From Methanofollis fontis (GTDB lineage Archaea > Halobacteriota > Methanomicrobia > Methanomicrobiales > Methanofollaceae), in the NCBI RefSeq assembly GCF_004297185.1, contig NZ_PGCL01000004.1, forward strand, positions 1-64,000: a DNA stretch of 64,000 nt, read 5' to 3'. Shown here piece after piece: positions 1,656 to 38,286 of this stretch; within the stretch, counting starts at the first letter, position 1, and every line of letters starts with the position of its first letter. The translations under genes and the position numbers were made by a program. The notes under the pieces were generated by a model. It was not told where the DNA came from. It searched no databases and saw nothing but the letters and a program-made list of their open reading frames with translations.

Positions 1656-1703
1656 GTGAGCCCCATCCCCCCACTTTCAACTTTCGCCCCACACGCGCCG
1701 CAC

Positions 1704-7365: not shown

Positions 7366-7404
7366 GGCATCTCTGTCTCCAATCATTCTCCAATCATTCT
7401 CCAA

Positions 7405-7609
7405 TACAGGTGTTCACATCTCGAATCATATCGGTTAATTGCGTGATTCCGGGCAGAATTATTGGAATCCATTCGACAATCTTCGACAATCCGATCCCCA
7501 ATCGTCCCCCAATCCCGGTTTCAAGATCTCGATGTATTAATGCTTATTTTGAAATTCAACTGATAATATTTGAGATCTTTTCGCCAATCTTCCCCAATAC
7601 TTCCGCCAA
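7405..7609 (-). other. Decayed extension with GATTGG repeats between AlbA_2 gene and hsdS
   Basis: Read on the minus strand the region is dotted with GATTGG (GGAGAATGATTGG twice near the hsdS end, more near 7480-7510 and 7570-7610). Directly after the TGA of the AlbA_2 gene the frame continues as LAEVLGKIGEKISNIIS before another stop, and a second frame reads ETGIGGRLGIGLSKIVEW. Repeated gly/ile linkers followed by a C-terminal winged helix are common in AlbA_2 ATP-binding proteins, so this looks like a broken-off linker or tail of that gene. Confidence 0.35.
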
Positions 7610-9292
7610 TCATGCATCATCCCGGGTGCCGGGGGTGAGCACCCACGTCGCTCCCCTCGTCCTCCCGACCGTCGTGATCGTCCCCTCCTTCCGCATCTCC
7701 TGAAGCAGATCCTTGATGAACCGGCGCTTTTGCTCCTCATTCAGAGCATCGGAAACCTTGTCCAGCAACAGGTTTTCTATCTCCCCTCTCTTCGCCTCAT
7801 GATACGCCAGGAGGTATTCCACCACCATATCCTTGAAATATGCCCTATCAAACGACCGATTTCGAATATAATCAGCCCGTGTATCGGTTTTTGCTGCCAC
7901 AATCTCCGAAACATACAGGTTCGGATGCCGCCCCTCGATCAGGTTCTTCTTCCGCAGGAGATCCCGCTCCTCCTTCGGGATCGGATACCCCTTCTGCACC
8001 CGATCGAGGGCGATCACATCCATAAGCGTCAGATCCTTATGCTCGATCAGCATCCGGGTGTAGCGCTCATCGATCACCCGGCCCGGAATCGTGACCTGCA
8101 CCATCCCCTCCTCATCGAGATCATAATCAGGCATCGGGAAATTGCGGTCCCACTGCTTCCGAAACATCCGCCTGATCCCGCTGCCGACGGTGTCGATCAT
8201 ATTCAACTCCACCATCGCATTCGCAAGGAAGGGATTCCGGTAGCGGTCAGGCGGCATATCGCGCTCGATCACATTCAGCACCGTCCCCGGAATAAACTCG
8301 CCGCGGTTGGTAAACATCAGAGAACCCGGCCGCTCGGTCACCGTGATGCGAGCCGCCTGCCGGTAATCCTGGTGGGCGATGCAGTTGTGCAGCGCCTCGC
8401 GGATCACCCAGGGGTCGTACTGCGTCACCTCCAGAGGAAAGAGGGTTTCCCCTGAAATATGGCGGACCGTAAGATTCCTGACCTTCTGAAAGACCCGGTC
8501 GACCGCGAGGATCAGCGGCGGCCCGAAATGGGCATAATCGACGTTATCCCCGCCCTCGTCCCTGAGCACCCAGACAATATGCGCAACGGCAGGCGAGAGG
8601 AGAGACGCCGCCTCGCTCCTGCCCAGAAGGATGAGTGCGGCATTCGTCACCCGGCCCTGAACACAGACCTTCGCCTCTGTAAGGAACGTACTGTCGTCCC
8701 ACTCATCGACCTCGTCTGCAAGATCCCGGTGTTTCTCCTTGTATTTCTCCCGCGCAAAGGCGATCGCATCGGGATCGAGATCCGCGAATGTTGCACTCTC
8801 GCAGACCTCCGCCGACCAGTCGTCCTGCGGGGCCTGCCGGCGTATTGCCTCGATCTCATAGAGGGCAAGCGGTTCGAGAGACTCATGGTTCCGGCCGTAG
8901 GCATAACCTTTCCACGTCGTCGGAACGCCACGCGGGGCCGGAGGGATCTGGAACATCACCACCCGTTTCCCCTCGACCATGAGTTCGTGAACGGCGGCAA
9001 ACGAGATACGGTGATTCGTATGCTGCGCAATCTCCTCCTTGAGACGATCGAGGCCCGGCGGGGTGAGGCGGTAGTGTGAGTCGACAATCGTCCTGGGCGG
9101 ACGGTCGGTGACGCCGAAGATCAGCCAGCCTGCCGGCTTCCCGTGCAGATTGGCCTCGTTGCTCAACGCCGAAAAATATTTGCCGATTTTGTCGAAACCA
9201 TAATCGGTTTTTGCTTCCTTGAACTCAATCCACTCGGTCTCGGCCGGAAGATCCATCATCTCCCGCAGTTGAGCATCCAGATCCCCCGGCAT
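7610..9292 (-). CDS. AlbA_2 (Schlafen-like) DNA-binding, ATP-binding protein
   Basis: The 560-residue protein starts with an AlbA_2/Schlafen domain (ETEWIEFKEAK near 18-28, then SALSNEANLHGKPAGWLIFG), followed by a middle region and a GHKL-type ATPase-like segment (EALHNCIAHQDYRQA near 300, GSGIRRMFRKQW later), the architecture of COG2865 proteins. Such proteins are often inserted in type I restriction loci, where they are thought to regulate or complement restriction. The ATG at 9292 is chosen because GGAGAGG precedes it; a GTG at 9313 overlapping the hsdM stop (ATGA-like) is the alternative. The family's usual repeat linker and C-terminal winged helix are missing. Confidence 0.8.
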   Translation of the reverse strand: MPGDLDAQLREMMDLPAETEWIEFKEAKTDYGFDKIGKYFSALSNEANLHGKPAGWLIFGVTDRPPRTIVDSHYRLTPPGLDRLKEEIAQHTNHRISFAAVHELMVEGKRVVMFQIPPAPRGVPTTWKGYAYGRNHESLEPLALYEIEAIRRQAPQDDWSAEVCESATFADLDPDAIAFAREKYKEKHRDLADEVDEWDDSTFLTEAKVCVQGRVTNAALILLGRSEAASLLSPAVAHIVWVLRDEGGDNVDYAHFGPPLILAVDRVFQKVRNLTVRHISGETLFPLEVTQYDPWVIREALHNCIAHQDYRQAARITVTERPGSLMFTNRGEFIPGTVLNVIERDMPPDRYRNPFLANAMVELNMIDTVGSGIRRMFRKQWDRNFPMPDYDLDEEGMVQVTIPGRVIDERYTRMLIEHKDLTLMDVIALDRVQKGYPIPKEERDLLRKKNLIEGRHPNLYVSEIVAAKTDTRADYIRNRSFDRAYFKDMVVEYLLAYHEAKRGEIENLLLDKVSDALNEEQKRRFIKDLLQEMRKEGTITTVGRTRGATWVLTPGTRDDA

Positions 9293-9309
9293 CGCCCTCT
9301 CCACCCCGA

Positions 9310-10758
9310 TCACTCCGCCCGCATGAGTGATTGGGTCAGTTCCTCCTTAAGTTTCTCTCTCGTCTCCTCCACCGCCGCCGACACCGCCCGGTAGCGGGCG
9401 AGCAGTTTCACCGGGTCACCGTTCTCCTCCACCGGCGTATTCGGGTTCTTGATATCCAGGTTGTAGTTGTTCCGCACGATCTCGGCGATCGGCACCCGCC
9501 AGGCGTGCTCGTTCTCCTCCCGGTGCTCCCACCACGCCTTCTCCGCCTCGAACTCCTCGATCCTGATCGGCTTCGTCTTCGAGTACGACTTATAGCCCTC
9601 GGGATACGGGTGCTCGTAGTACCAGACCTCCCGCGTCGGCTCCCCCTTCGTAAAGAAGAGCAGGTTCGTCCTGATCCCCGTATAAGGGTTGAACACCCCG
9701 TTCGGCAGACGCACGATCGTATGCAGGTTGCACTCCGAAAGGAGCTTCTCCTTCACCCGCGTCTTCACGCCCTCGCCAAAGAGCGTCCCGTCCGGCAGCA
9801 CAATCGCCGCCCGCCCCCCGTCCTTCAGCAGGTGAGCGATCAGCACCAGGAACAGGTCCGCCGTCTCCCGCGTCTGGAACGCAGACGGGAAATTGCTCTC
9901 GATCCCGTCCTCCTCCATCCCCCCGAACGGCGGGTTCGTCACCACCACGTCCACCCGGTCCCGCGGCCCATAGTCCCGCAGGGGCCGGGCCAGGGCGTTA
10001 TCGTGGCGGACCTGCACCGGCACATCGATCCCGTGCAGCATCATATTCGTCGTGCAGAGCAGGTGCGGCAGCGGCTTCTTCTCGATCCCGTGAATCGAAC
10101 GCTGGAGCAGTTGTTCGTCCTCCACCGTCTTCACCTGCGCCGACCTGATGTTATCGATCGTCGAGGTCAGAAAACCCCCGGTCCCGCACGCCGGGTCCAG
10201 CACGACCTCCCCCAGCTGCGGGTCCGCCATATCCACCATGAACTGCGTCACCGCACGCGGCGTATAATACTCGCCGGCATTCCCCGCACTCTGGAGGTCT
10301 TTCAGGATCTTCTCGTAGATATCGCCGAAGAGGTGGCGGTCCTTCGAACTGTTGAAATCGATCTCGTTGATCTTGTTCGCCACCTGCCGGATCAGCGTCC
10401 CGTTCTTCATATAGTTGTACGAGTCCGCAAACACGCCCCGGATCACATGCTCCACCCCGGAGCCGTCGAGCCGCGGCTGGAGATCCTTCAGCGTCGGAAA
10501 CAGGTCATTGTTCACGAAATCCAGCAGGGCGTCTCCCGTCACTCCCTCGGCATCCGCCGCCCAGGCCCGCCACCGCAACCGCCCCGGAATCGGCGAGACA
10601 TACCCGTCGTCGAGGAGTTCATACTCCTGCTCCCGGTCGTCAAAGATCTTCAAAAACAGCATCCAGCCGATCTGGCTGATCCGCTGGGCGTCGCCGTCCA
10701 CCCCGGCGTCTTTGCGCATAATGTCCTGAATGCCCTTGATGGTCGTGCTGATCGACAT
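9310..10758 (-). CDS. hsdM: Type I restriction-modification DNA methylase HsdM
   Basis: The 482-residue protein has the HsdM N-terminal helical domain followed by an N6-adenine methyltransferase domain: GEYYTPRAV at 162-170, the AdoMet-binding DPACGTGGF at 188-196, and the catalytic NPPFGG at 275-280. It would form the M2S methylase with HsdS and the full restriction complex with HsdR. It lies 55 bases after hsdR on the same strand, and its stop is immediately followed by the AlbA_2 gene. No damage is visible. Confidence 0.93.
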   Translation of the reverse strand: MSISTTIKGIQDIMRKDAGVDGDAQRISQIGWMLFLKIFDDREQEYELLDDGYVSPIPGRLRWRAWAADAEGVTGDALLDFVNNDLFPTLKDLQPRLDGSGVEHVIRGVFADSYNYMKNGTLIRQVANKINEIDFNSSKDRHLFGDIYEKILKDLQSAGNAGEYYTPRAVTQFMVDMADPQLGEVVLDPACGTGGFLTSTIDNIRSAQVKTVEDEQLLQRSIHGIEKKPLPHLLCTTNMMLHGIDVPVQVRHDNALARPLRDYGPRDRVDVVVTNPPFGGMEEDGIESNFPSAFQTRETADLFLVLIAHLLKDGGRAAIVLPDGTLFGEGVKTRVKEKLLSECNLHTIVRLPNGVFNPYTGIRTNLLFFTKGEPTREVWYYEHPYPEGYKSYSKTKPIRIEEFEAEKAWWEHREENEHAWRVPIAEIVRNNYNLDIKNPNTPVEENGDPVKLLARYRAVSAAVEETREKLKEELTQSLMRAE

Positions 10759-10813
10759 GAACCCTTAAACCTCGAACTCTCCAGAATGGTTGGCGCTCAC
10801 AGCAGATAGAAGG

Positions 10814-13117
10814 TTAGCACTCGGCCCCGTACAGGCAGGTCTCAAGCCGCCGGATCGCCGCAAGGTAGCGCTCCTTCCCGCCGAAGATCCCGTTCACGAT
10901 CTCCACCGGCGTCCCGATCCGGCTGATCGGGTCAACCCGCAGCACCTCCATGCTCTCCACGTCGGCCAGCCCCTCGTCGGCGTACTTCTCCAGGATGGCG
11001 TCGAGCACCGCCCTCGCCTGCTCCCCATACCGGGCGAAATACGACGCCTTCTTCACCCGCTCCGCCCGTTCCCGCCGGGACAACGGCGGCCGGTCAAAGG
11101 CCACATGGCAGATCAGATCGAAGGGATCGAACTCCCCGCCCACCTCCTCGGCAAGCGCCTCGAAGAGCACGCCCCGGTCCTCCAGTTCCTGCACCACCGC
11201 CATCTTCCGCTCGGCCCCCGTCCAGGAGGTCAGGAACTCGTCCAGCGAGGCATACTGTTTCGCCACCGCCCGCCTCGTATAGTCCTTCAGCGACTCGGTG
11301 ATCAGCCGCCCGTCCGCACCATAGTACTGCACCCGCTCGGCCACCACGCCCACCTCGACATCATGAACCACATAGCGTTTCCCTTTCGGGCGGTCCTGTT
11401 CGGTATCCCGCGTCGTGGGCACATGCCCCGGCTCGAACTCCTCATCGGGCAGCGGCGGCCCGTCCCACTCGGGATCGGAGAAATGCTCGGTCGCCCGGCG
11501 GAAGTCCATGATCGTGAAATAGTTCTTCCCGAAATCCTCGTTGATCCGCGTCCCCCGCCCGATGATCTGCTTGAACTCCGTCATCGAAGCGATCCTTCGA
11601 TCGATCACGATCAGTTTGCAGGTCTGCACGTCCACCCCGGTCCCGAGCAGCCGCGACGTCGTCGCAATCACCGGGTACCGGCTCTCCGGCATGATGAAAT
11701 TGTCCAGTTCCGCCTTCCCGTCGACCGAATCCCCGGTGATCCGCATCACATAGCGGTGACTCTTCGCCACAAACTCCGGCAGGGCGTTCACCAGGCCCTG
11801 CCGCATCCGCTCGGCGTGATTGATATTCTCGCAGAAGACGATCGTCTTGTCGTACGGGTTCGTGGCCCGGAGGAACGCCGCCACCCGCCCGGCGACCACC
11901 TCGGTCCGCCGCTCCAGCACCAGGCTCCGGTCGTAGTCGGTCAGGTTGAACTCCCGGTCCTCGATCTCGTTCCCGTAGCGGTCCCGCTGGCCCGGTTCGG
12001 GCCGCCACCCTTCGAGATCCTTGTCAAGATCGACCCGGATCACCCGGAACGGGGCGAGGAAACCGTCTTCGATCCCCTGCTTCAGGGAATACGTATAGAC
12101 CGGCTCGCCGAAATAGTGGATATTGGAGATGTACTTCGTCTCCTTCGGCGTCGCCGTCATCCCGATCTGGGTCGCCGAGGCGAAGTAGTCCAGCACCTCC
12201 CGCCACGCCGAGTCCTCGGCCGCGCTCCCGCGGTGGCACTCGTCCACCACCACCAGGTCGAAAAAGTCCGGCGAGAACTGCCGGTAGATGTCCTTCCACT
12301 CCTCCTCGCCGGTGACCGCCTGGTAGAGGGCAAGGTAGACCTCGTAACTCTTGTCCACCGAACGGTTCTGGATCTTTGTCATCGCCGTCCCGAACGGCTT
12401 GAAATCGTTCGTCCTCGTCTGGTCGACGAGGATATTCCTGTCGGCGAGGAAGAGGATCCGCTTCTTCGTGCCCGCCTTCCAGAGCCGCCAGATGATCTGG
12501 AACGCCGTATAGGTCTTCCCGGTGCCGGTGGCCATCACCAGGAGGATCCGGTCCTGCCCCTTTGCGATCGCCTCGACCATCCGGTTGATCGCTGCGATCT
12601 GGTAGTAGCGGGGCACCTTACCCGAACTGTCGACATAATAGTCCTGGGTGATGAGCCGTTTCTGGTCGGCGTCCAGCCCCTTCCACGCACAGTAGCGCTC
12701 CCAGAGGATTGCAGGCGAGGGAAACTCGTCAAGCCCGAGTTCCCGCTCGATCTTCGCGGACGTATGGGTCCGGTCGTGTATCAGGAAGCCGTCGCCGTTC
12801 GAACTGAAGACGAAGGGGGCGTCGAGCATGGCGGCGTATTCGAGGGCCTGCTGCATGCCATCGCCGATATCGTGGTTGTTGTCCTTCGCCTCGACAACGG
12901 CGAGGGGGAGGTTCGGTTTGTAATAGAGGACATAGTCGGCGAATTTCCGCGTCCCCCTGCGTGCCTTCGCCCCCTGGACGAGGACCTGGCCCCTGGTGAT
13001 GTTCACCTCTTCCCTGACCTGTGTCGCAAAGTTCCAGCCGCCGTTGCGGATCGCCGGCGTGATATATCTGGTCCGGATATCCTGTTCGCTTAGCGATTTT
13101 TTATCGGCGGTCACCAT
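10814..13117 (-). CDS. hsdR: Type I restriction endonuclease subunit HsdR (EcoEI-like)
   Basis: The 767-residue product has an N-terminal nuclease domain with ADYVLYY and AVVEAK at 60-78 (the PD-(D/E)xK residues), then a superfamily-2 translocase with Walker A ATGTGKT at 196-202, DECH at 292-295 and GMTATP at about 325. The C-terminal helical part would bind the methylase. An ATG at 13117 was chosen because it begins the conserved segment and leaves room for the divergent promoter of the EVE gene; a longer frame to 13234 lacks family similarity. First gene of the leftward type I operon. Confidence 0.9.
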   Translation of the reverse strand: MVTADKKSLSEQDIRTRYITPAIRNGGWNFATQVREEVNITRGQVLVQGAKARRGTRKFADYVLYYKPNLPLAVVEAKDNNHDIGDGMQQALEYAAMLDAPFVFSSNGDGFLIHDRTHTSAKIERELGLDEFPSPAILWERYCAWKGLDADQKRLITQDYYVDSSGKVPRYYQIAAINRMVEAIAKGQDRILLVMATGTGKTYTAFQIIWRLWKAGTKKRILFLADRNILVDQTRTNDFKPFGTAMTKIQNRSVDKSYEVYLALYQAVTGEEEWKDIYRQFSPDFFDLVVVDECHRGSAAEDSAWREVLDYFASATQIGMTATPKETKYISNIHYFGEPVYTYSLKQGIEDGFLAPFRVIRVDLDKDLEGWRPEPGQRDRYGNEIEDREFNLTDYDRSLVLERRTEVVAGRVAAFLRATNPYDKTIVFCENINHAERMRQGLVNALPEFVAKSHRYVMRITGDSVDGKAELDNFIMPESRYPVIATTSRLLGTGVDVQTCKLIVIDRRIASMTEFKQIIGRGTRINEDFGKNYFTIMDFRRATEHFSDPEWDGPPLPDEEFEPGHVPTTRDTEQDRPKGKRYVVHDVEVGVVAERVQYYGADGRLITESLKDYTRRAVAKQYASLDEFLTSWTGAERKMAVVQELEDRGVLFEALAEEVGGEFDPFDLICHVAFDRPPLSRRERAERVKKASYFARYGEQARAVLDAILEKYADEGLADVESMEVLRVDPISRIGTPVEIVNGIFGGKERYLAAIRRLETCLYGAEC

Positions 13118-13331
13118 TTGCGAAATCAGTCCTCTAAGGTTGGTAAATACCAATAGATGACTCCTGACAAAAATAAACTCTTGGATCGGGTTCTCTGAAG
13201 GTTTGTTCGGAGGAGGAGGCACTGTTCGGGGCATGGCAGAGCATCACCGGAATGAGTGCTTCCGTCGTCTGTACTCGCCCTGCTTTCTTTTCCCGACACC
13301 TTTTTCCGAACGGGAGGTGTATTGCCAGTAC

Positions 13332-13996: not shown

Positions 13997-14350
13997 TTGA
14001 GGAGGAATAAAATTATCATAACACTTTCTTGGATCAATAGGATTCTTGAATGGCATAAACTCACCAATCTCTATTGCAAAACCCTTTGACTTCCCCGCGA
14101 AATACTTGAAAAATTCGGATTCGTCCAGTCCGGACTGATCTTTTACAGTCTCCCACAGCAGATCCGGCCGGTCTTCCAGGATCTTACCTACCGTGAATTT
14201 GCCGATGATTTTTTTGACAGGATAACTTGAGTAAATATAAACCGAATTGATATCTTTTCTTCTAAAAATAGATCTCCGGAACTCGTATTTTTTTGTCCCT
14301 GCCATTATTCTGGAAGCGTAAACCGGTTTAATGGATAGTAAAACATTCAT
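13949..14350 (-). CDS. ASCH domain protein
   Basis: The 133-residue protein opens with LLSIKPVYASRIMAGTKKYEFRR, given here in two parts: LLSIKPVYASRI then AGTKKYEFRR, the GxKxxExR signature of ASCH domains. ASCH proteins are PUA-like RNA-binding folds; one characterised member (YqfB) removes the acetyl group of N4-acetylcytidine. The gene overlaps the 3' end of the PIN-GNAT-EVE gene by 23 bases, so the two are translated from one message. Substrate unknown; a role in processing or reading an acetylated nucleobase made by the partner is speculation. Confidence 0.8.
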   Translation of the reverse strand: MNVLLSIKPVYASRIMAGTKKYEFRRSIFRRKDINSVYIYSSYPVKKIIGKFTVGKILEDRPDLLWETVKDQSGLDESEFFKYFAGKSKGFAIEIGEFMPFKNPIDPRKCYDNFIPPQSFYYLDHDIEQICQS

Positions 14351-15845
14351 TTATTTCACCAATTTTTTTGATCATGCTGAATTTATCATCATCTATTTGC
14401 TGTATGGTTTGAGGTTGGCCATTTAATATGCTGGATTCTATCAATACTGATAATTTTACCGGATTCTTTAAATTCATATGGTGTTTAAATAGAATTATAG
14501 TAAGTGGTTTTTTGTAACCTTCAATTTCAGATTTGGAATAAACGCTCCGTTTACCGATGATTTCTATGATCTTCTCTGGGTTATCCTGTAAATAGTGGAC
14601 CTTTTCAATAACGCCCAAAGATGTAATTGATTTGATGTCCTGGGACCTATAAAATAATATAAGATCTCCTTCTTTCAATTTTTTGATTTTGCTATTGGTA
14701 AGATATGCTTTTTTAATCGTGTTACCCTCTACGATGAAGTCCCCCATGGACTCATCGAATGTGAGTTGTCTGCTTCCACCATCACAATATTCGGTGAACA
14801 GACGATGATGAAATTTCGGCCTTATAGGTGCGACAAATTTATTGACATTACTTCCATCATAGAATGAGGGATAATAATCTCGCGAGATCTCTAAAGGGGT
14901 AAGTTCCTTACAATCATCGCCAGTGGGATATAATTTCTTAATGAAAACATCTTCACCCATATCGCGAGGCAACACTCCCACATGTTTGAATCCAAACTGA
15001 TTTATCAGGTAAACCAGCCGATCTCCATCTTCTGTGAAATGTGTAAGATATACCTGAGAAAGATTACTTTTTGCTGCAATTCCAAAGGCGACCTTCAGTA
15101 GCAGTTCCCCTATCTTATTCCCCTCATGCGATACTTTTAATGTAGCAATTTTTAGGCGTTTCACCGACGGCTGCGGGGGATTAGAAGGGATCGGCTCCTC
15201 CTCGAATTTATAGATCATTAATGCGCCAAGGCTTCCATCATTCTTTTTGTAGTAATAACATTCACGCCCATCTCTTGCGACATTTGTAAACCATTCATCA
15301 AATTCTGGATAATCTTGCCTTAAAGTATCAAAAATAGGATCTTTTGGATCGAGATCACTTACAAAACCTTTTTTCAGCGCGAAAGGTCTGGGTACAGTTT
15401 CTGATGGCGGCAGATCCTTTTGAAAGTGTTCAATTGCTTCATAGGGGTAAAAAACCCTGTCCGATATGCCGAGATTCGAGGCTTTTAGATGGATTCCGTC
15501 GTCGTTGGTGATCAAAAAACCAACTGCATTTTTATATAGGGAGTAAAGAATCAGGTTATCAATCTCATCATTTTCACTCTTTGGCTCTCCAATTTTTTTG
15601 AAAAATTCTTCGTCTTTATCGGGTACAGGGGCATTTTCAAGAATTGGATAGGCTTCTACCTTGGAGAGAGTGATCCGTTTTCTCTCTTCGTTTCTATCCC
15701 TATGAATATCCTTTAATGATGCAGGGTGAAGCAGTACGTCTGTATGGGTCCTGCTGAGGATCTTTATCAGGTTACTGATCTCGGGAGAGACGTATCGATC
15801 GTCTTCACGGTAGATTAGAATGTTAGTATCGATTAAAACTCTCAT
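14328..15845 (-). CDS. PIN nuclease - GNAT acetyltransferase - EVE-like fusion protein
   Basis: The 505-residue protein combines three parts. Residues 1-140 are PIN-like: MRVLIDTNILIY gives Asp6, SENDEIDNLILY gives acidic residues near 93-96, and LITNDDGIHLKA gives Asp115/116. Residues 170-305 form a GNAT acetyltransferase with GNKIGELLLKVAFGIA at the acetyl-CoA-binding position and NQFGFKHVG near its end. Residues about 370-480 look like an EVE/PUA-like domain (KKLKEGDLILFYRS, SLGVIEKVHY). It is followed by an overlapping ASCH gene. The region is AT-rich compared with both flanks. A toxin that cleaves or acetylates tRNA is one possibility; no function is demonstrated here. Confidence 0.75.
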   Translation of the reverse strand: MRVLIDTNILIYREDDRYVSPEISNLIKILSRTHTDVLLHPASLKDIHRDRNEERKRITLSKVEAYPILENAPVPDKDEEFFKKIGEPKSENDEIDNLILYSLYKNAVGFLITNDDGIHLKASNLGISDRVFYPYEAIEHFQKDLPPSETVPRPFALKKGFVSDLDPKDPIFDTLRQDYPEFDEWFTNVARDGRECYYYKKNDGSLGALMIYKFEEEPIPSNPPQPSVKRLKIATLKVSHEGNKIGELLLKVAFGIAAKSNLSQVYLTHFTEDGDRLVYLINQFGFKHVGVLPRDMGEDVFIKKLYPTGDDCKELTPLEISRDYYPSFYDGSNVNKFVAPIRPKFHHRLFTEYCDGGSRQLTFDESMGDFIVEGNTIKKAYLTNSKIKKLKEGDLILFYRSQDIKSITSLGVIEKVHYLQDNPEKIIEIIGKRSVYSKSEIEGYKKPLTIILFKHHMNLKNPVKLSVLIESSILNGQPQTIQQIDDDKFSMIKKIGEINECFTIH

Positions 15846-22301: not shown

Positions 22302-23516
22302 TCAGATCTTCCTCTCCAGGTCAGCCCGTAGCTGCTTGAGGAGGAGGTCGTACTCCTGCGATCCCCTGGCGACCGTGAGGCACTCGTCCATGCTCTCGGC
22401 CGCCTCCTCGGTGATGGACCGCCCACAGGTGCTGCAGAAGTGCGAGGACGGGCCGTTGATGGTCTGGCAGTGCGGGCACTGGCGGGGCTCGAGCCTGGGG
22501 CGCCGGTGCCTGGTGCCGTCCCGGGCGATCCCGTAGGTCCGCAGGATCTCCTGGTCGATGTCCTGGCCCGTGAGGTGGGCATAGGTCTTGAACATCGGGG
22601 TGGTGATGTTGCCCCACATCATCAGTTTGATCACGCTCTCCGAGATCCCCTCGGTGATCATGTGGGTGATCCGGGAGTGGCGGAAGATGTGCGGGGTGAT
22701 GTGTTTCGTAATCTCGGCACGCTTGGCGAGGCGGGTGAGCTGCTTCTGCACGGTGGCGTGGGTGAGGGGCCGGCCGCGCTGGTTCACAAACACGAGGGCA
22801 TCGCCGACGGGGTGGAACGGGTAGTCGTTCCGCCAGGTGGCAAGGTGCTCCCGGGCCATGACCAACCTGACGTAGCGGGGTTTGCCGGTCTTGAAGTTGA
22901 CATTGACGACGGCCCCATACTGGTCCATGAGCACGTCCTTCCAGGCGAGGGTGCCCATCTCGCCGATCCGGAACCCGCCTTCGTAGAGCATCATGATGAG
23001 GGCACGGTCCCGGCTCCAGAGGGTGGCGGCCATCATGGCCGTCACCTCGGCGGGTGTGAGCAGGTCGGAGGCCTCTTTGGTCATGGTGTCCTTGGTCGGA
23101 ACCTTGAGGCGATGGATCTTTCGGTCAGGGAGGTCGGTGTAACCGTTCTCGATCGCCCACCCATAGAACTGTTTGAGAATGACGATGTGGTCGACGATGG
23201 TGTTTCGCTTGAAGGGTCTGCCGCGGGCGCTGGTGGCGGTTTTGAGGACAGAGATGCCCTTGTAGATGTCGGCCATGCTGTTCTCCAGGTATGGCCCGAT
23301 GAAGCGTCGCCACCCGACGAGGGTGAAGACGAGCTTGTTTGTTCGGCCTGCACCGATGTTGTTGCAGGACTGCGATTCGGCGATGAACTCACGGATCAGG
23401 TCGGCGTCACACGCGGTGAGCGTGCCGTTGGAAAGACCACGGTTGATGGAGTTCTCCGCATACTCGCTCTTGACGCAATGGAAAGAGCTGTCTGAAAGCG
23501 TTGGCGCACTTTTCAT
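22302..23516 (-). CDS. Tyrosine recombinase (integrase) of element A with C-terminal zinc ribbon
   Basis: The 404-residue protein has a SAM-like N-terminal DNA-binding region and a catalytic domain with the tyrosine-recombinase residues (numbered from the upstream ATG at 23522): Arg185 in EGGFRIGEMG, the box-II HIFR at 278-281 in HIFRHSRITHM, and Tyr314 in FKTYAHLTG. A C-terminal CPHC...CSTC zinc ribbon (349-366) is an extra shared with the second integrase (37084-38286), to which it is similar throughout. The gene begins about 60 bases from an 11-base copy of the tRNA-Glu 3' end. The ATG at 23516 is preferred because GAAGG is then seven bases upstream. Confidence 0.9.
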   Translation of the reverse strand: MKSAPTLSDSSFHCVKSEYAENSINRGLSNGTLTACDADLIREFIAESQSCNNIGAGRTNKLVFTLVGWRRFIGPYLENSMADIYKGISVLKTATSARGRPFKRNTIVDHIVILKQFYGWAIENGYTDLPDRKIHRLKVPTKDTMTKEASDLLTPAEVTAMMAATLWSRDRALIMMLYEGGFRIGEMGTLAWKDVLMDQYGAVVNVNFKTGKPRYVRLVMAREHLATWRNDYPFHPVGDALVFVNQRGRPLTHATVQKQLTRLAKRAEITKHITPHIFRHSRITHMITEGISESVIKLMMWGNITTPMFKTYAHLTGQDIDQEILRTYGIARDGTRHRRPRLEPRQCPHCQTINGPSSHFCSTCGRSITEEAAESMDECLTVARGSQEYDLLLKQLRADLERKI

Positions 23517-23574
23517 ATGCATGCCTTCGGTCAGGGCGGGAAAAAGGGTATTGGCTTTGGACCGAAAGTCAGAA

Positions 23575-27123: not shown

Positions 27124-29106
27124 CTAGTTTAAGGATTTCAATAGGAGTTGTATGAGTGGTAATGCCGCTTTGACCCCTTCAGATAATGTTTGTGTTGTGT
27201 CAATGGTTTCTTTAATCCCCCTTAACCATGCTTTTACCTTTTCCAGAGTTGGCTCCTGTGGAGGCATTGGCATGATCCCTTTTTCAAACACACTTTCACT
27301 TTCCAACACTGACATAATTGCATCGAGTTTTTGTTGCGTATTTGAATCAAAGAGAGACAATAGTTCATGCAATGTTTCATATTTTATTGACATCTCACGA
27401 AGTTTTGCCTCTGCTTCGGCGTTGGCCTTTGCAAGATATTTAATCCGGTTTTTCTGATCATTATATTCTAAAATATGTTCTATAAAAGGCTCATCAGAAA
27501 TTATCTCTATAAAACTGGCGTCTGCCAAATCCCCTCTATTTGATTCTAAAGCCCTACGGATTTGCTCTCTTAAGGGATGATTTAGAATAATGTTTTTAAC
27601 TGTGTTTATGTCGTTTTTTGATAGTCCGATCTTGTAAGTTACTAATTTTGCATAGTCTTCTATTGTTAGTTTACTTCGAGTTGTGGTCATCGAATATTTT
27701 AATATGGCCTCACTAACCATTTGTTGGTCTTCTGTGTCAAATTCAACACCAGTATAAGCGATAAAATAATTCAATAAAGAACGTGGCTGTAGTACGAGGC
27801 CAAGTTTATTATTATGTCTTTGGTACAGCCCATCTACTATGGCTAATAAGTTATCAAAAGTAATGAACCAGGGTCCAAATATTTCTCCAGTATTGCCTCC
27901 AGATATAGATCCTCTAGCACAATCTACAAAACCAATGCAATGAGCATCATGGGCTACCTGTTGCTTGGAGCGATTTTTTTCTTTTCCAACGAGATTTATG
28001 GTATCTACTATATAGGATTCAGTTACATCATTTATTTCACATTTGATCGTATTTGGAATCTCTTGTACCGTCATTTTATTAAACGAAAATTCCCAACCCC
28101 TTAAAAATTCGTAATAATCATCCCAATTTGTGATCCCATCTATTTCATTCTGATTTATGAAATCTTCAACAAATTGATTCATAATTGTGGGGCGTGCCTT
28201 TGAAGAGGATAAACCACCCATCTCGTGGTTCGATCCCTCTATTAATCTCCACATTTCATCTTTTGTCTTTGATAAGTAATATAGGGGAATATTCCTCTTC
28301 TTACAATACTCAACAATAGTTAATGTCAATGGGTGTCGAGGATCCGTTTTACAAAAAAGAGATACTAAAAATGAGGTATCTAATACTAAATACCTAAGAT
28401 TTTCAACAATATTAATGGATGGAAGAGATTTTGCTTGAAACATAATGTGCATACAGATTGTTGAGTAATATGAATTGAATACCAATTTTTGTAACTGTGG
28501 ACTATTCGATCTTAAGTATTCAATAATTAATTGAGAGAACTTTTTCGCTGAGTCGGGCAATAAGCCAGATTGACTAACATTGTTCTCAATTATTTTTTGT
28601 ATATCAATTTCCTGAAGAGACTCCAGTTGAAACTCTAAATTCTCAGATGTGGATGCAACATGAGTAAGTAGTCGAAGTATTATGTTCTCAAAAATGGGTT
28701 TAGCATCTCTATCAAGATAAATATCATAGTCAGGCATTTGTTCTTTCAAAAAGGTATTAAATTCATCCCATATTGGAGATACTTGTGTTGAAAAATTATT
28801 TATTGGTATTTTTTTGTCCATTCTATATTTCATCCCATTTACTTGACTTAGTACCCCGTCATCAATTAATTCTTCAATTACAACAATGGCATCTTCTTTT
28901 TCAATCCTACACTTGATCGAATTTTTGATTTTTATTATCATTTCATCCAACAGGATTATGTCGCCAACATCATAATCTGTCAATGCCGCCAAAAAAAATG
29001 ATTTACAGATTTCACTTTTTATTCTCACCACATTGTTATCAGTCAGTATGAGTAATCTTGCAACGATTTCATTATTCATTTCTTCATCAATGTTACAGGC
29101 ATCCAT
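27124..29106 (-). CDS. Large protein with a central PIN-like nuclease domain
   Basis: The 660-residue AT-rich gene product has an N-terminal helical region (1-225) and a PIN-like core from about 235: LRYLVLDTSFLVSLFC, STIVEYCKKR-like helix, LSKTKDEMWRLIEG, and later AHDAHCIGFVDCARG and WFITFDNLLAIVDG, which supply the acidic residues expected of a PIN metal site. The C-terminal third is helical, with a coiled coil near 560-600 (AKANAEAEAKLREMSIKYET). It stands alone in element B with composition unlike the backbone. Large PIN-containing proteins occur in defence islands; defence is an inference from context. Confidence 0.55.
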   Translation of the reverse strand: MDACNIDEEMNNEIVARLLILTDNNVVRIKSEICKSFFLAALTDYDVGDIILLDEMIIKIKNSIKCRIEKEDAIVVIEELIDDGVLSQVNGMKYRMDKKIPINNFSTQVSPIWDEFNTFLKEQMPDYDIYLDRDAKPIFENIILRLLTHVASTSENLEFQLESLQEIDIQKIIENNVSQSGLLPDSAKKFSQLIIEYLRSNSPQLQKLVFNSYYSTICMHIMFQAKSLPSINIVENLRYLVLDTSFLVSLFCKTDPRHPLTLTIVEYCKKRNIPLYYLSKTKDEMWRLIEGSNHEMGGLSSSKARPTIMNQFVEDFINQNEIDGITNWDDYYEFLRGWEFSFNKMTVQEIPNTIKCEINDVTESYIVDTINLVGKEKNRSKQQVAHDAHCIGFVDCARGSISGGNTGEIFGPWFITFDNLLAIVDGLYQRHNNKLGLVLQPRSLLNYFIAYTGVEFDTEDQQMVSEAILKYSMTTTRSKLTIEDYAKLVTYKIGLSKNDINTVKNIILNHPLREQIRRALESNRGDLADASFIEIISDEPFIEHILEYNDQKNRIKYLAKANAEAEAKLREMSIKYETLHELLSLFDSNTQQKLDAIMSVLESESVFEKGIMPMPPQEPTLEKVKAWLRGIKETIDTTQTLSEGVKAALPLIQLLLKSLN

Positions 29107-30129: not shown

Positions 30130-31146
30130 ATGATCTCGCGAGCCGTCCAACCAGGATCATCCAGCCCCCTCCATTCTGAAAAATCATTCTTTATCAATCA
30201 GGTCGGGTTGGACCAGCCACTCGAAACCTATGTCCCTGCAGATATTCTTGCAATCGCCGAGGCCGAAGGGCAGCGTGCAATCCCCCAGATCGCCAAGAAC
30301 CCTGCGTTGATAAAAGAGATCGAAGCACTCTCCAGCAACCTCCCGTCGCAGCACCGCTTTATCAATAGGGACAGTCGGAACCTCGACTGCATTCCCGATG
30401 AAAGTGTTCACCTCGTCGTCACCTCGCCGCCGTACTGGATTCTCAAAAAATACCCTGAAAAGGATGAACAACTCGGCCAGATTGCAGATTACGAACATTT
30501 TTTGGATGAACTGGATCGGGTCTGGCAACATATCTATCGGGTCCTCGTCCCCGGCGGTCGGCTGGTCATCGTCGTCGGGGATGTCTGCCTCCCCCGCAGG
30601 ATAGTCGGGCGCCACATGGTCATGCCCCTCCATGCCTCCATACAGGAGCACTGCCGGAAGATCGGGTTTGACAACCTGGCGCCGATCATCTGGTATAAGA
30701 TCGCAAACGCCTGTTTCGAGGCAAAATCGCCAGGCTCGTTCCTGGGCAAACCCTATGAACCGAACGCGATTGTCAAAAACGATATCGAATACATCCTCTT
30801 CCAGAGAAAACCAGGGGGTTATCGGAAACCCACTCAGGCGGCCCGGTTGTTGTCGGTCATCTCCGAAGAGAATCATAAGGCGTGGTTCCGGCAGATCTGG
30901 GACCTCAAGGGGGCCTCGACCCGTGAGCATCCTGCACCCTACCCACAGGAACTGGCAGAACGGCTTGTGCGGATGTTTTCGTTTGTTGGTGACACGGTGC
31001 TCGATCCCTTCGGCGGAACGGGAACAACCGCTCTTGCTGCAGGGCGGTGGGGGCGAAACAGCATCACCGTCGAGATAGAAGAAAAATATTTCTCAATGGA
31101 GATTGATCGGTTTATTCATCAGTTTAAACAGTCTCGATTATTCTGA
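30130..31146 (+). CDS. DNA methyltransferase, N4-cytosine type (TSPPYW)
   Basis: The 338-residue protein has the catalytic motif TSPPYW at 98-103 near the N-terminus and the AdoMet-binding motif DPFGGTGTT near residue 300, the class-beta order. SPPYW is typical of N4-cytosine methylases, though some N6-adenine enzymes share it. Between them lies VPGGRLVIVVGDVC and a target recognition region. It is directly followed by the XhoI/PaeR7I-like restriction enzyme gene, so it should protect that site. Confidence 0.85.
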   Translation: MISRAVQPGSSSPLHSEKSFFINQVGLDQPLETYVPADILAIAEAEGQRAIPQIAKNPALIKEIEALSSNLPSQHRFINRDSRNLDCIPDESVHLVVTSPPYWILKKYPEKDEQLGQIADYEHFLDELDRVWQHIYRVLVPGGRLVIVVGDVCLPRRIVGRHMVMPLHASIQEHCRKIGFDNLAPIIWYKIANACFEAKSPGSFLGKPYEPNAIVKNDIEYILFQRKPGGYRKPTQAARLLSVISEENHKAWFRQIWDLKGASTREHPAPYPQELAERLVRMFSFVGDTVLDPFGGTGTTALAAGRWGRNSITVEIEEKYFSMEIDRFIHQFKQSRLF

Positions 31147-31159
31147 TAGGGGCATGTTC

Positions 31160-31927
31160 ATGGTGAACGAACGGATTCTTCAAGAGATTTCACGAGATGA
31201 CTATTTTTCCGATGCGGTGCGGTATTTCTGGGATAAACGGGCGTCACAGGCGGAGGACCAGAATAACCGGGGGGTGAAAGATCAGGGCAGCCGTTCGGAG
31301 GCGACGGGCGGAAAGCACATGGACGGGTTTTTCTCCCTCATCGAAACGTTGTTGCTGGATGTTGGTGTGCCTGCGGAGGATATCTGCACACGGAAGAGAA
31401 ACCTGGACCTTCCCGGATTTTTTCGCGCTGAAAAACAGTGGGATCTGATTGTCATTAAACACCGCCCTGAAGGAGAGAAAGAACTGGTTGCGGTTCTTGA
31501 ACTGAAGTCTCAGAAGGGGCCGTCGTTCGGGAACAACATCAACAACCGGACCGAGGAAGTGTTGGGGAGTGCGTATGATCTCTGGACAGCCTACCGAGAA
31601 GGTGCCTTCAAGACGTCACCATCTCCCTGGTTGGGATATATGCTCTTGCTGGAGGACTGCGACAAGTCCCGGAAGAGCGTGAGAAATAACGAGCCGCACT
31701 TTGATGTTTTCCCTGAGTTTAAGAACGCCTCCTATGCTGAACGCTATCATCAGACCTGCCTGCGGCTGGTGCGGGAGCGGGTCTATTCTGAGGTGTGTTA
31801 TCTGCTGGCGGACCAGGAGGAGAAGATGAAGGCCAGGAATTATTCTGAACCAGATGAGATGTTGGCAGGGACGCGGTTCCTGCGGTCCCTGTGCTCGCAT
31901 CTGAATAATTTTTATGAACTGAAGTGA
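31160..31927 (+). CDS. XhoI/PaeR7I-family type II restriction endonuclease
   Basis: The 255-residue protein carries the conserved core of the XhoI family: WDLIV with Asp95, then VLELKSQKGPSFGNNINNR from 112, giving the PD-(D/E)xK residues Asp95, Glu114 and Lys116, then EEVLGSAYDLWTAYREGAF. Characterised members cut CTCGAG; that target is an inference here. The ATG at 31160 is chosen because TAGGGG lies seven bases upstream; 31154 is also possible. The gene starts 13 bases after the methylase stop. Confidence 0.88.
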   Translation: MVNERILQEISRDDYFSDAVRYFWDKRASQAEDQNNRGVKDQGSRSEATGGKHMDGFFSLIETLLLDVGVPAEDICTRKRNLDLPGFFRAEKQWDLIVIKHRPEGEKELVAVLELKSQKGPSFGNNINNRTEEVLGSAYDLWTAYREGAFKTSPSPWLGYMLLLEDCDKSRKSVRNNEPHFDVFPEFKNASYAERYHQTCLRLVRERVYSEVCYLLADQEEKMKARNYSEPDEMLAGTRFLRSLCSHLNNFYELK

Positions 31928-31977: not shown

Positions 31978-32095
31978 TGACGGCCCGCCGTGTTTGCTCG
32001 CCCTGCTCGCGGCACACCGCGGGCCTCCTTCTGTACGCTGTCCTGGTGCGGGGGGACGCCCGCGGCTTCGTCGCTTTGCTCTTCACCGCCGGCAT
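31978..32095. repeat. Dispersed GC-rich intergenic repeat, copy 2
   Basis: The stretch beginning CGGCCCGCCGTGTTTGCTCG matches, with small differences, the reverse complement of about 36720-36838. It lies after the restriction enzyme gene in a non-coding gap and is much richer in GC than the AT-rich gene that follows. Confidence 0.6.
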
Positions 32096-32165: not shown

Positions 32166-33152
32166 TCAATCGAATTTCTTGATCACTTTCATTAAAGTCC
32201 ACTTATCTATTTCGAGATCTTGTGCTTCATTATAGAATCTTTCATGTTTGAATTCGCAACAAACACGCTGATTAAAGTCCCATCTGGATAATTGCGAGGC
32301 GAGGTTCTTAATAAATTTTCCAGAGATTATTGCTCCATTGTCCAAATAAAATTTGAATCGGCGCTCCTTTTGCCCTAATGTATCTAATTTGCCTGACAAT
32401 TTTTCATAAGTTATTGGAAATGTATCAATATTCGTGAGAATTTCAAATGTCCTTGAAGAAAATTCTTTCTTTATAACTTTTTTTTCAAACTTTTCACACC
32501 CTAATTCATCATAAAACGAGATATCAAGCTGATTCTTTGCAATCTGCTCTATGAATTTTTTATATTTGGAAAACACCCGAAAACCCAAATCTTCACGAAG
32601 CCTTTTCAGTTTTTCTAAGTCATTTGAGCAATCGAAAATATCATTTATTGTTTCTAAGGCATCAACTATTTGAGTTGCCTCATTGGAATATGACAGAATA
32701 TTCAATGAGTCACTAAATACAATCCGAAATGACCCTGAACTTGTTGCAGCCACGTTCACTGTAGACAATTGAGTGATATGCCTCGGTATTCTCCCTTTCG
32801 AAGATTCTCCCCCACCATTCCTCCTATGTACTACCGACGTGAGAAGTTCTTGATATGTAGTTAATACTCCTCCAAGTACAGCCGCAGGTATTTCATTTGA
32901 AAACGAATTTATTGAGAAATTTTCATTTTTTGAGAGTTTTAAATCAAATAATGAACGATGCTTTAATTTAAATGCCTCATTTAATTCATTTAGCAATATT
33001 GAGCGTCTATTTACTACGCTTTGAAGGCTAAATTTAAGGGCCTTATCTGAAGGATACATCTCGACATATTGGTTATAATGGCTGATACTTTCATCAACTA
33101 CAGCCAAATCTTCCTTTATTATTTGGATAGATCTAGGGTCTGAGGAGTACAT
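32166..33152 (-). CDS. Hypothetical partner of the DUF6932-like protein
   Basis: The 328-residue AT-rich product has an N-terminal helical region (about 1-75, EDLAVVDESISHYNQYVEMY and following), a middle beta/alpha part with TVNVAATSSGSFRIVFSDSL near 150, and a helical C-terminal half. No catalytic motif, signal or membrane segment is visible. Its start overlaps the stop of the upstream gene by one base, so the two are translated together and probably act as a pair, in the manner of a toxin-antitoxin or small defence system. I do not recognise the family. Confidence 0.6.
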   Translation of the reverse strand: MYSSDPRSIQIIKEDLAVVDESISHYNQYVEMYPSDKALKFSLQSVVNRRSILLNELNEAFKLKHRSLFDLKLSKNENFSINSFSNEIPAAVLGGVLTTYQELLTSVVHRRNGGGESSKGRIPRHITQLSTVNVAATSSGSFRIVFSDSLNILSYSNEATQIVDALETINDIFDCSNDLEKLKRLREDLGFRVFSKYKKFIEQIAKNQLDISFYDELGCEKFEKKVIKKEFSSRTFEILTNIDTFPITYEKLSGKLDTLGQKERRFKFYLDNGAIISGKFIKNLASQLSRWDFNQRVCCEFKHERFYNEAQDLEIDKWTLMKVIKKFD

Positions 33153-33682
33153 TACTGTGAAACCTCCTCAAGTAGTGTCATTTTGTATTCCTCTGATAGG
33201 GTGTCAAGAATTACCAGACCTCGTTTTATCGTCTCACTCTCATCAGTGGAAAAAAATTCTTTCCATCTCTGCACCTCAGCAAATGTAATGTTGTATCTTC
33301 TATCTGTTTCTGGATACACGGGAATATATATTGTATGATGATAAAGAATCTGATATCCATTGTTTATTAAAAAGAATCTATCAAATTCGTCTTGTTCAGG
33401 GTGCCCATTGTATTTTAGACCATCATAAAGAACTACCATATCTATGTCTCCTGGATTGAGTTTAGCAGATGTAAAACTCCCCCCCATCCATTTTTCAATT
33501 GTGATTTTAAAAGTCGATAAAAATCCAGCATATCCTATAAAATCGGAAAAAATCGTGCTTCGTGTTTCTGATTCTGGGAATTCGGTAACAAATCTATTTT
33601 TATATTCCCTTAATGTTGCGGGGTAATATCCTGGGGGCAAATATCCATTTTCAACAAAATCCGGGATCTGGCTCTCTACCAT
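33152..33682 (-). CDS. DUF6932-like nucleotidyltransferase-fold protein
   Basis: The 176-residue protein begins with FVENGYLPPGYYPATLREYK, typical of DUF6932, and has GGSFTSAKLNPGDIDMVV at 67-84: GS followed by DxD (Asp79, Asp81), the metal-binding pattern of minimal nucleotidyltransferases. Proteins of this kind modify or bind nucleic acids and several are toxins or antitoxins. The downstream 328-residue gene overlaps it by one base. Both genes are AT-rich and sit between a restriction locus and the ArdC operon. Confidence 0.65.
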   Translation of the reverse strand: MVESQIPDFVENGYLPPGYYPATLREYKNRFVTEFPESETRSTIFSDFIGYAGFLSTFKITIEKWMGGSFTSAKLNPGDIDMVVLYDGLKYNGHPEQDEFDRFFLINNGYQILYHHTIYIPVYPETDRRYNITFAEVQRWKEFFSTDESETIKRGLVILDTLSEEYKMTLLEEVSQ

Positions 33683-33791: not shown

Positions 33792-34784
33792 TTATTCACG
33801 ATATTGGTGGGCCCCGGCGGTCGGTGCGCCGCGAGCCGGGCGAGCAAGCACGGACCGCCGGCGGGGGCGGGCGGCGGGATAGAGCGTAACCGGGGCCGAA
33901 GCGCCCCGGTCATGGTGAGCACGAGCAGCAGAGCGTCCCCCCCAGGGAAGAGGCCGAAGCGCCCCGGTCAGCCAGTCCGCCGCCCGCTGCGCATCGCTCG
34001 CCGCCCGCACCACATCGGCCGCCGTCCCCTCCCGGATCCGCCGGAGCCACCCCGCGATATAGGCCGCCTGGTTCTCGGCCACCGGCGGCGTATCGATCCC
34101 GCAGATCGCACACAGAAACGCCGCCCCCATCTCGGCTGTCAGTTCCTCGCGGGAATAGCGTTCGCTCCCGAAGCGGGCCGCCCTGGTGATCCCCTCCCGA
34201 TCCAGGCGGTGGGCCGCCCCGGTCCAGTGCGTCAGTTCGTGAAAAAAGGTCGAATAATAGGCGGCGGCGCTCTCGAACCGCTCCGGCCCCGGCATGGTGA
34301 TCACGTCCCGCCCCGGATAATACGCCGGTTCGCCCGCCCGCACCCGCGGCTCATTCCGCCGGATCACCTCCTCGCACGAGGCCACCGGCTCCGGGGCGGC
34401 GAGGCCCTCCGGCTCGATGCCGTCGCACTGGCCGAGGTGGAACACCTTATAGTAGCGCACAAGGGGCCGCTCCCGTCGGGCCACCACCCGCCGCACCTCG
34501 CCGGTCGCCGGGTCGCGCACTTTTCGCTCCTCGTCGTACTTCCAGAGCACCACCAGACCGGCGGCCCGCTCGCCCTTCCGCACATGCCCGCCCGCCCGCT
34601 GGATCTGCCGGTAGGTACCCCACCAAGAATGACCGGCCAGCAGCACCCGGTTGATCCCGCGGTAGGGTCGGCGGGTGGCGAGGTTGCACGGCGTCATGCC
34701 CTGCCAGGTCTGCCGCCAGGGCACCGTCCCCGACTCAAGAGAGGAGATGATGCGGTCCCGCACCATCTCATAGACCGAGGCCAT
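33792..34784 (-). CDS. ardC: ArdC-like antirestriction protein (ssDNA-binding plus zincin domains)
   Basis: The 330-residue protein has the ArdC N-terminal single-strand-binding domain (VPWRQTWQGM, GINRVLLAGHSWWGTYRQIQ, GGHVRKGERA) and a C-terminal metallopeptidase-like domain with FFHELTHWTGAAHRL (HExxH-like HELTH) and EELTAEMGAAFLC. ArdC proteins protect plasmid DNA from host restriction on entry. After AADWLTG the last 55 or so residues come from a dispersed repeat and do not look like the family. The ATG at 34784 overlaps the upstream stop as TGATG. A similar tail sequence lies at the left edge of the window. Confidence 0.82.
   Translation of the reverse strand: MASVYEMVRDRIISSLESGTVPWRQTWQGMTPCNLATRRPYRGINRVLLAGHSWWGTYRQIQRAGGHVRKGERAAGLVVLWKYDEERKVRDPATGEVRRVVARRERPLVRYYKVFHLGQCDGIEPEGLAAPEPVASCEEVIRRNEPRVRAGEPAYYPGRDVITMPGPERFESAAAYYSTFFHELTHWTGAAHRLDREGITRAARFGSERYSREELTAEMGAAFLCAICGIDTPPVAENQAAYIAGWLRRIREGTAADVVRAASDAQRAADWLTGALRPLPWGGRSAARAHHDRGASAPVTLYPAARPRRRSVLARPARGAPTAGAHQYRE
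33805..33970. repeat. Dispersed GC-rich repeat, copy 3, inside the ardC 3' end
   Basis: About 105 bases (33810-33915) match the reverse complement of 36385-36490 closely. Next to it the 19-base GGCCGAAGCGCCCCGGTCA occurs at 33894-33912 and again at 33952-33970 as a direct repeat. The repeat supplies the C-terminal coding part and stop codon of ardC. Confidence 0.65.
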
Positions 34785-34942
34785 CAGGGCCACCGCCGGA
34801 AATCATATTCGACACTGCAGCGCCCGCACCGCACCACGCCCCGGCGGACGGTGAAAAACTCGCCGACCGCACCGCAGCGGGGGCAGCGGTCGGAGAGGAC
34901 CGCCCGCCGTTCCCGGATCTCGGCAACGCTCATCCGGGCCAT
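34784..34942 (-). CDS. Small zinc-ribbon protein of the ArdC operon
   Basis: A 52-residue product, MARMSVAEIRERRAVLSDRC then PRCGAVGEFFTVRRGV and CGRCSVEYDFRRW, has CPRC and CGRC knuckles for one zinc. Its ATG overlaps the upstream stop and its stop overlaps the ardC ATG, both as TGATG, so the operon is tightly coupled. Confidence 0.65.
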   Translation of the reverse strand: MARMSVAEIRERRAVLSDRCPRCGAVGEFFTVRRGVVRCGRCSVEYDFRRWP

Positions 34943-36344: not shown

Positions 36345-36384
36345 TCTTTTCATCATATTCCATTTTTCGCAGGATATGCTTGGC

Positions 36385-36838
36385 CGCTTGTGCCAACCAT
36401 GACCGGGGACCTTTCGGCCCCCGGTGATGCTCCATCCCGCCGCCCACCCCCGCCGGCGGTCCGTGCTTGCTCGCTCCTGCTCGCGGCGCACCGACCGCCG
36501 GGCGGTTCTCGTTCACTCGCTCCCGCTCGCGTCACGAAAACCGCCCTCCCTCCAGAGCACCTATCGCAGCTGACTGCCCCGGAGGGGAGGAGCCGCCGAT
36601 AGGCGGCGGGCGGGGGATGCCGACGTCGCCCGGAGGGGATGCTCGCCCATCCCCGGAGGGGGACCGTCGGGCCGAGCGGAGCACGGTGCCTCTGGCACGG
36701 TGCGGAGCGAGGAATCGGTACAGCCGCCGACAAGGAGCGAACAGCGACGCCGGCGGGGGCGTCCCCCGCAGCCAGGCCCGGCCCGAAAGCGGCCCGCGGT
36801 GTGCCGCGAGCACGGGCGAGCAAACACGGCGGGCCGGA
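36385..36838. repeat. Dispersed GC-rich repeats, copies 4 and 5, in a long non-coding stretch
   Basis: Bases 36385-36490 match 33810-33915 in inverted orientation; 36562-36605 is a hairpin unit bounded by CCTATCG and CGATAGG like that at 50-105; and 36720-36838 matches 31978-32095 in inverted orientation. Open frames across this region on both strands are Arg/Pro/Gly-rich products of the repeat and are not taken as genes. Confidence 0.65.
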
Positions 36839-37083: not shown

Positions 37084-38286
37084 TCACCCCTCACGCGCCG
37101 AGTCCATCAACACCCGCACCACCGCCGGGTTCGCCTTCAGGAGCGTCTTCAACTCGTTCATCACATCCTCAGCGTTCATCGGACGACCGCAACTGTAACA
37201 ATATCGGGCCGCCGGGGGGTTCACGATCTCGCAATACTGGCATTTCACCCCCTCGACACCCTGCCACAACTCGCCGCCACCCACGATCCCGTTCTTCTCC
37301 AGGACCGCCCGATCGATATCGCACCCCGTCAGATGGGTATAGGTCGCAAACTCCGTCGCCGCCACCGTCCCCCACATCATCAACTTGATCACCGTCTCCG
37401 GGTAGCCCTCCTGGATCATATGGGTGATCCGCGAGTGGCGGAAGGTATGCGGCGTCACATGCCGACCGAGCCCGGCCCGCTTCACCACCTCCCTGAGCAG
37501 GGCCGCCACCGCCGCATAGGTCAGGGCCTTGTTCGACCGGCTCAGGAACACCAGGTTATCCCCCTCCGCCCTGAACGGATACACCGACCGCCACTGGATC
37601 AACGGTTCGCGGGCCAGCACCAGACGGATATACCGGGGCCGGTTCGTCTTGAAGTTCACATTCGCCACAACGCCGTTCTGATCGAAGACCAGGTTCCCCC
37701 AGGTCAGCGTCCCGATCTCGCCGGCCCGAAACCCGCCTTCATATAGCGTCGTCACGAGCGCACGGTCCCGCACCGACCGGGCCGCCGCGATGACCCGCTC
37801 CACCTCGGAGGGCGATAAAAGGTCGGCGGCGGTCTTGGTCATCCGGTCCTTTGCGGGGGTCTTAATCCTCCGGAGTTTCTCGGTGGAGATGTCGATATAC
37901 TCTTTGAACGCAAGCCACCGATAGAATTGTTTCAGGATGGTGACATAATCCCGAATGGTGTTCTGTTTATAGGGTGTGCCCCGTCGGCTGGTCCCGCACC
38001 GCAGAAGATTGATGCCGTTGAGAAGGTCGGTGAGGTCGTTGTCGAGATAGGGACCGAGGTATCGTCTCCATCCGACGAGATGGTGCATGATTTTGTGTAA
38101 GCGGACCGTGCTAACGTTGTGATAGGCCGCTATTTCTGCCAGGTATTCACGAATTAAAGAATAATCCTGTTCAGAAATCGTGTTGCTCAAAAGACTTTTT
38201 TTGAGGGACTCGTTCAATGAGTTAATTTTAATACGATGAAAATTACTATCAAGAATTGTGGGTGCTTCTGCTCTCAACTTCGTCAC
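37084..38286 (-). CDS. Tyrosine recombinase (integrase) of element B with C-terminal zinc ribbon
   Basis: The 400-residue protein is a paralogue of the element A integrase, with the same order of parts: N-terminal DNA-binding region, Arg in EGGFRAGEIGTL, box II in HTFRHSRITHMI, tyrosine in YTHLTG, and a C-terminal CQYC...CYSC zinc ribbon. Translation appears to start with GTG at 38286. The gene begins 44 bases beyond the 3' end of tRNA-Glu and is transcribed in the same direction, the normal layout for an element integrated in the 3' part of a tRNA gene. Confidence 0.92.
   Translation of the reverse strand: MTKLRAEAPTILDSNFHRIKINSLNESLKKSLLSNTISEQDYSLIREYLAEIAAYHNVSTVRLHKIMHHLVGWRRYLGPYLDNDLTDLLNGINLLRCGTSRRGTPYKQNTIRDYVTILKQFYRWLAFKEYIDISTEKLRRIKTPAKDRMTKTAADLLSPSEVERVIAAARSVRDRALVTTLYEGGFRAGEIGTLTWGNLVFDQNGVVANVNFKTNRPRYIRLVLAREPLIQWRSVYPFRAEGDNLVFLSRSNKALTYAAVAALLREVVKRAGLGRHVTPHTFRHSRITHMIQEGYPETVIKLMMWGTVAATEFATYTHLTGCDIDRAVLEKNGIVGGGELWQGVEGVKCQYCEIVNPPAARYCYSCGRPMNAEDVMNELKTLLKANPAVVRVLMDSAREG

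Follow-up and report, generated by a model that had tools for sequence, protein, structure and literature searches.

The closest described counterpart of the locus analysed here is PDC-M63AB, one of the PADLOC candidate systems, which are reportedly set out in a preprint by Payne et al.; it consists of two genes on a mobile element with gene A adjacent to gene B, and includes a prophage copy in E. coli NILS69. Two further arrangements resemble it in position. In phage lambda, rexA and rexB occupy the position directly after cI, and EcoprrI/PrrC places an effector gene, that of the anticodon nuclease PrrC, within a type I restriction-modification (R-M) operon. Type VII HEPN-MNT systems (HepT/MntA) pair a small GS...DxD nucleotidyltransferase, MntA, with a protein partner, HepT, to which it attaches nucleotide, and RosmerTA joins RmrT to the HTH-ImmA antitoxin RmrA, HTH-ImmA proteins being proven antitoxins in that system (PMC10440598).

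The window (the whole 64,000-nucleotide stretch of DNA from the archaeon Methanofollis fontis that we analysed) carries two genes, A and B, which match both protein models of PDC-M63AB. As this family is already listed by PADLOC as a predicted defence candidate, the archaeal pair is a further PDC-M63 member and not a new family. It differs from the listed system in being archaeal, in lying on an apparently integrative island, in having a histidine at the third catalytic-acid position of A and in the distance of its matches; the large protein B, which an earlier note on this DNA had called unrecognised, matches PDC-M63B at E 4e-9. One relative from another B subfamily (L004) was not caught by the PADLOC models.

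Gene organisation and genomic context

The pair and its signals lie on the minus strand as follows.

33152..33682, minus strand: gene A, 176-aa DUF6932 protein, predicted minimal nucleotidyltransferase, PADLOC PDC-M63A (open reading frame and profile matches)
32166..33152, minus strand: gene B, 328-aa partner of A, PADLOC PDC-M63B (open reading frame and profile match)
33163..33169, minus strand: Shine-Dalgarno sequence GAGGAGG of B, with GGAGG ~10 nt ahead of B (sequence)

The earlier note had proposed two genes sharing a one-base overlap and a foreign composition, and both observations hold: the A stop codon overlaps the B start codon in TAATG, and the pair has 34.8% GC compared with 58.9% for the window and 64.2% for its chromosome-like part (38500-64000). 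Homologous pairs in three related archaea (L158-L160) have 35-39% GC inside loci of 56-57% GC, and by composition these too look foreign in their hosts.

Within the window the pair is flanked by an XhoI-type R-M system on one side and an ArdC-like gene on the other. The former, adjoining the pair at 30130-31927, is a complete XhoI/PaeR7I-type set of an N6_N4 methylase and an XhoI-family endonuclease, and the latter (33792-34793) encodes an ArdC-like anti-restriction protein (ArdcN plus zincin) beside these restriction genes. Tyrosine recombinases are encoded at 22302-23522 and 37084-38286, and since the second adjoins a tRNA-Glu gene (~42 bases away), the arrangement suggests that the pair sits in an integrated element, whose other end is possibly off the contig. 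A search of the window for a repeat of the tRNA-Glu end, as expected of an attachment site, found none; one near-match occurs on another contig, and the contig of the pair begins at the window start.

Several other features of the island were observed. At 5683-13234 an AlbA/Schlafen-type protein separates the specificity subunit of a type I R-M locus from its R subunit, and no M subunit for this locus was found among the open reading frames scanned. An AT-rich 505-aa frame (14328-15845) with a PIN-like start, MRVLIDTNILIYRE, recognised by eye, has no Pfam match and is overlapped at its end by a 133-aa frame that appears by eye to be ASCH-like. Another AT-rich frame (34% GC, 660 aa, 27124-29106) likewise has no Pfam match. 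Related GC-rich intergenic sequences are repeated across the island at 1-47, 31980-32080, 33800-33960 and 36380-36500.

Gene A encodes a predicted nucleotidyltransferase

The earlier note took the small protein for a DUF6932-like nucleotidyltransferase with a GS...DxD motif, and profile searches bear this out far beyond chance (E 9.8e-25 to Pfam DUF6932, PF22014; E 2.9e-19 to PADLOC PDC-M63A). Two sites bear on its predicted catalysis.

33440..33481, minus strand: catalytic motif of A, GSFTSAKLNPGDID, GS(x9)DID, residues 68-81 (alignment of 57 relatives)
33335..33337, minus strand: His116 of A, third catalytic-acid position (alignment, codon checked)

Conservation of the DxD residues had been set beforehand as a test, and both aspartates are invariant in 57/57 diverse relatives (D79, D81), together with R41, G68, S69 and P77; these active-site residues are the same in phages, bacteria and archaea alike. 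The third catalytic acid is Asp in 41 relatives, Glu in 12 and His in 4, so that the third carboxylate of pol-beta/MNT enzymes is present as D or E in 53/57 and absent from the window protein. The other three histidine copies (L008, L009 and L011) are archaeal and ~30% identical to window A. Because its third catalytic acid is replaced by His116, the window enzyme may, judging from the alignment, have weak activity or none.

The AlphaFold2 model of A (pLDDT 93) finds MNT proteins among its best-ranked solved folds, including 2rff and 7ae9, though the matches are weak (E 0.07 and above). Polbeta, DNA_pol_B_palm and NTP_transf_2 each gave low-score matches to at most five relatives of A. We take A to be an MNT-type nucleotidyltransferase by prediction, the activity of the window copy being uncertain.

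Gene B encodes a partner protein with a predicted three-part fold

A Pfam scan of B gave nothing above cut-off; matches to ribosomal S15 and LeuD fell below it and were taken as coiled-coil or chance similarity. Pfam found no HEPN domain in B or in 42 aligned B relatives, and neither Pfam nor the PADLOC models found an HTH or peptidase domain in B. The AlphaFold2 model (pLDDT 87) predicts three parts.

32961..33128, minus strand: N-terminal helical hairpin of B, residues 9-64 (AlphaFold2: two long helices, pLDDT mostly >90)
32430..32951, minus strand: core alpha/beta domain of B, residues 68-241, containing the invariant Gly140-Ser141 (AlphaFold2 and alignment)
32175..32411, minus strand: C-terminal OB-fold domain of B, residues 248-326 (Foldseek on the predicted structure)

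Foldseek related the C-terminus to IF-1 and SSB-type OB folds (probability ≤1.00, E 0.007-0.03). Gly140-Ser141 are the sole invariant residues across B relatives, and no conserved polar catalytic set was found in the B alignment. The core is distantly common to another predicted PADLOC defence family, PDC-M32A: one locus (L154) encodes at 1378-2523 (minus strand) a PDC-M32A-type protein which has the B-like core and lacks the hairpin, is followed by an open reading frame for a different partner of 134 aa, and has no A homologue within its 4-kb locus. In predicted structure B also resembles a phage DUF6575 protein (E 5e-12), and a DUF6575 protein is part of an E. coli defence system selected experimentally (PMC9519451).

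Linkage and distribution of the pair

Using B alone as the query on phage contigs, we found A directly upstream in 51/51 distinct intact B loci, which upholds the earlier proposal of a genuine two-gene system. The 5/5 genomes of the archaeal phylum that match window B also carry A adjacent, and the distance matrices of A and B correlate at r = 0.94 over 51 non-redundant pairs, a value reached in 0/5000 permutations. A and B are an inseparable two-gene module. The window proteins themselves are distant queries: direct scans of viral contigs with its A and B, and a tblastn search of phages and plasmids with its B, gave no match, and closer relatives used as queries did match.

In lambdoid phages and prophages (mEpX1, PhiR30_1, Erwinia phage 59, E. 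coli strains and K. pneumoniae) the pair comes immediately after cI or an equivalent regulator, and the likeness to RexAB is in this position only. S24-type or other HTH genes precede the pair in most of the phage loci inspected; in the streptococcal satellite phage Javan304 the gene of a DNA-binding regulator lies upstream of it, and it is also present on a conjugative Paenarthrobacter plasmid. Two archaeal relatives lie in type I R-M loci, one between hsdM and hsdS (L157) and another after hsdM-hsdM-hsdS-DUF4145 (L158). The first of these recalls EcoprrI/PrrC, from which the window pair differs in that PrrC is an anticodon nuclease and in that its own R-M neighbour is of type II.

An A-first search revealed a second DUF6932 clade, whose members come for the most part from cyanobacteria and gammaproteobacteria and have a comparable layout, usually with overlapping genes. 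The partner protein in this clade has a helical N-terminus and an HTH, sometimes followed by an ImmA/IrrE peptidase that matches the RmrA models of RosmerTA, and the two partner types form separate groups in the A tree (100/100 support). RmrA-type partners of this kind occur only in the sister clade, and window B differs from them in having neither HTH nor peptidase. One phage locus (L033, 5965-7186) encodes, directly 3' of a LexA/CI-like repressor, a DUF6932 protein that groups with the B-partner clade and has an ImmA/IrrE peptidase in place of B. Comparison of the B hairpin with the HTH partners by hhalign was weak (probability 50), that of B with the L033 ImmA partner was not significant, and we do not claim a common N-terminal hairpin for B and the HTH partners.

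Discussion

Our preferred reading, held tentatively and just short of what we would call probable, is that A and B form a PDC-M63-type module that is obligate and toxin-antitoxin-like, in which A is a toxin-like nucleotidyltransferase restrained by B. The A active site is invariant, whereas in B only a Gly-Ser is invariant and no set of polar catalytic residues is conserved, which makes A the likelier of the two to be the effector enzyme; this catalytic conservation, together with the antitoxin-type alternative partners of A, leads us to favour A as the toxin-like component and B as its restraint and sensor. In the uninfected cell B would bind A through its N-terminal hairpin, which we propose from the predicted structure as the A-docking element, and would keep the nucleotidyltransferase inactive. 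An infection cue would then free A, perhaps nucleic acid or an SSB-like state sensed by the OB-fold end of B, or alternatively failure of the neighbouring restriction system. Freed A would attach nucleotide to some RNA or protein essential to the host, growth would stop and spread of the virus would be blocked. In lysogens the pair, placed at the rex position, would serve to exclude superinfecting phages, and in archaea it would be a backup beside restriction systems.

The reverse polarity, a type VII-like arrangement in which B is a toxin that binds nucleic acid through its OB fold and A the antitoxin that attaches nucleotide to it, as MntA does to HepT, is the main rival, though unlikely on present evidence. 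MNT proteins are the highest-ranked meaningful solved folds for A, two of them (7ae9 and 6m6u) coming from HEPN/MNT complexes, and the presence of MNT antitoxins among the best structural neighbours of the A model suggests this polarity. B itself could also be the effector, given that relatives of its core occur in another predicted defence system in which no nucleotidyltransferase was seen, and its likeness to the DUF6575 protein points the same way. Against this, no polar active-site set is conserved in B, which also lacks a HEPN domain, and the other partners of DUF6932 proteins are of the HTH and HTH-ImmA antitoxin types. Membership of the window pair in HEPN-MNT was rejected for want of a HEPN toxin partner. 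Broken loci speak on both sides: among loci flagged as interrupted or split, to which the tally was confined, A is intact and B lost in two (L008 and L147), and A is lost and the partner intact in four (L060, L066, L069 and L071), an asymmetry of 4 to 2 that is too small to decide polarity. Raw internal-stop counts, over-counted as matches ran past gene ends, were not used.

We give still less credence to a regulatory or lysogeny-maintenance pair without any part in defence, in which A would modify a regulator, of the phage or of the host, and B would serve as its scaffold. It would suit the placing of the pair beside cI or an HTH repressor, as seen in most phage loci, and also the only published test that we found, in which deletion of PDC-M63AB from E. 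coli NILS69 had no effect versus ten phages (PMC12409345), a null result that speaks against our preferred reading but may be a matter of phage choice. It does not suit those archaeal pairs that lie in type I R-M operons or beside other R-M genes with no repressor.

That the archaeal pair is merely a decaying or catalytically dead passenger of the island is very improbable: His116 and the AT-rich foreign DNA would fit such a fate, but both open reading frames are intact with ribosome sites present, and the histidine recurs in the three other archaeal copies at ~30% identity. No more credible is a signalling pair, in which A would make a nucleotide second messenger for B as receptor-effector, as in CBASS, because although the two-gene layout fits, the match of the A profile to the CD-NTase 6e0k is marginal and not significant (E 0.14), A has 176 aa compared with 296 aa for 6e0k, and Pfam finds no known effector or ligand-binding domain in B; membership in CBASS was rejected, no CBASS model matching.

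The literature that we searched yielded no mention of DUF6932 by name and no measured toxicity or defence for any DUF6932 pair, and the published papers in it (preprints lay outside the search) contained no description of the DUF6932 partner types, the rex-position pattern, the embedding in archaeal restriction operons or the His variant. For a gene pair that had not been characterised, the analysis supplies a hypothesis that can be tested. It shows one nucleotidyltransferase family with two or more kinds of partner, each linked to a single clade, and the same pair turning up where lambda has rex, in a satellite phage, on plasmids and within restriction operons of archaea. With rather more doubt than attaches to our preferred reading of the pair itself, we propose that DUF6932 may be a widespread toxin-like nucleotidyltransferase with interchangeable partners (HTH, HTH-ImmA or the OB-fold sensor M63B), of which the M63B form would serve for superinfection exclusion at the rex position and as a backup in archaeal restriction operons, some archaeal copies working with His in place of the third catalytic acid. 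Should the toxin-like reading prove true, it would supply PDC-M63 with a mechanism and account for the genes that mEpX1-type phages carry next to cI, and it would make an archaeal defence module accessible to study.
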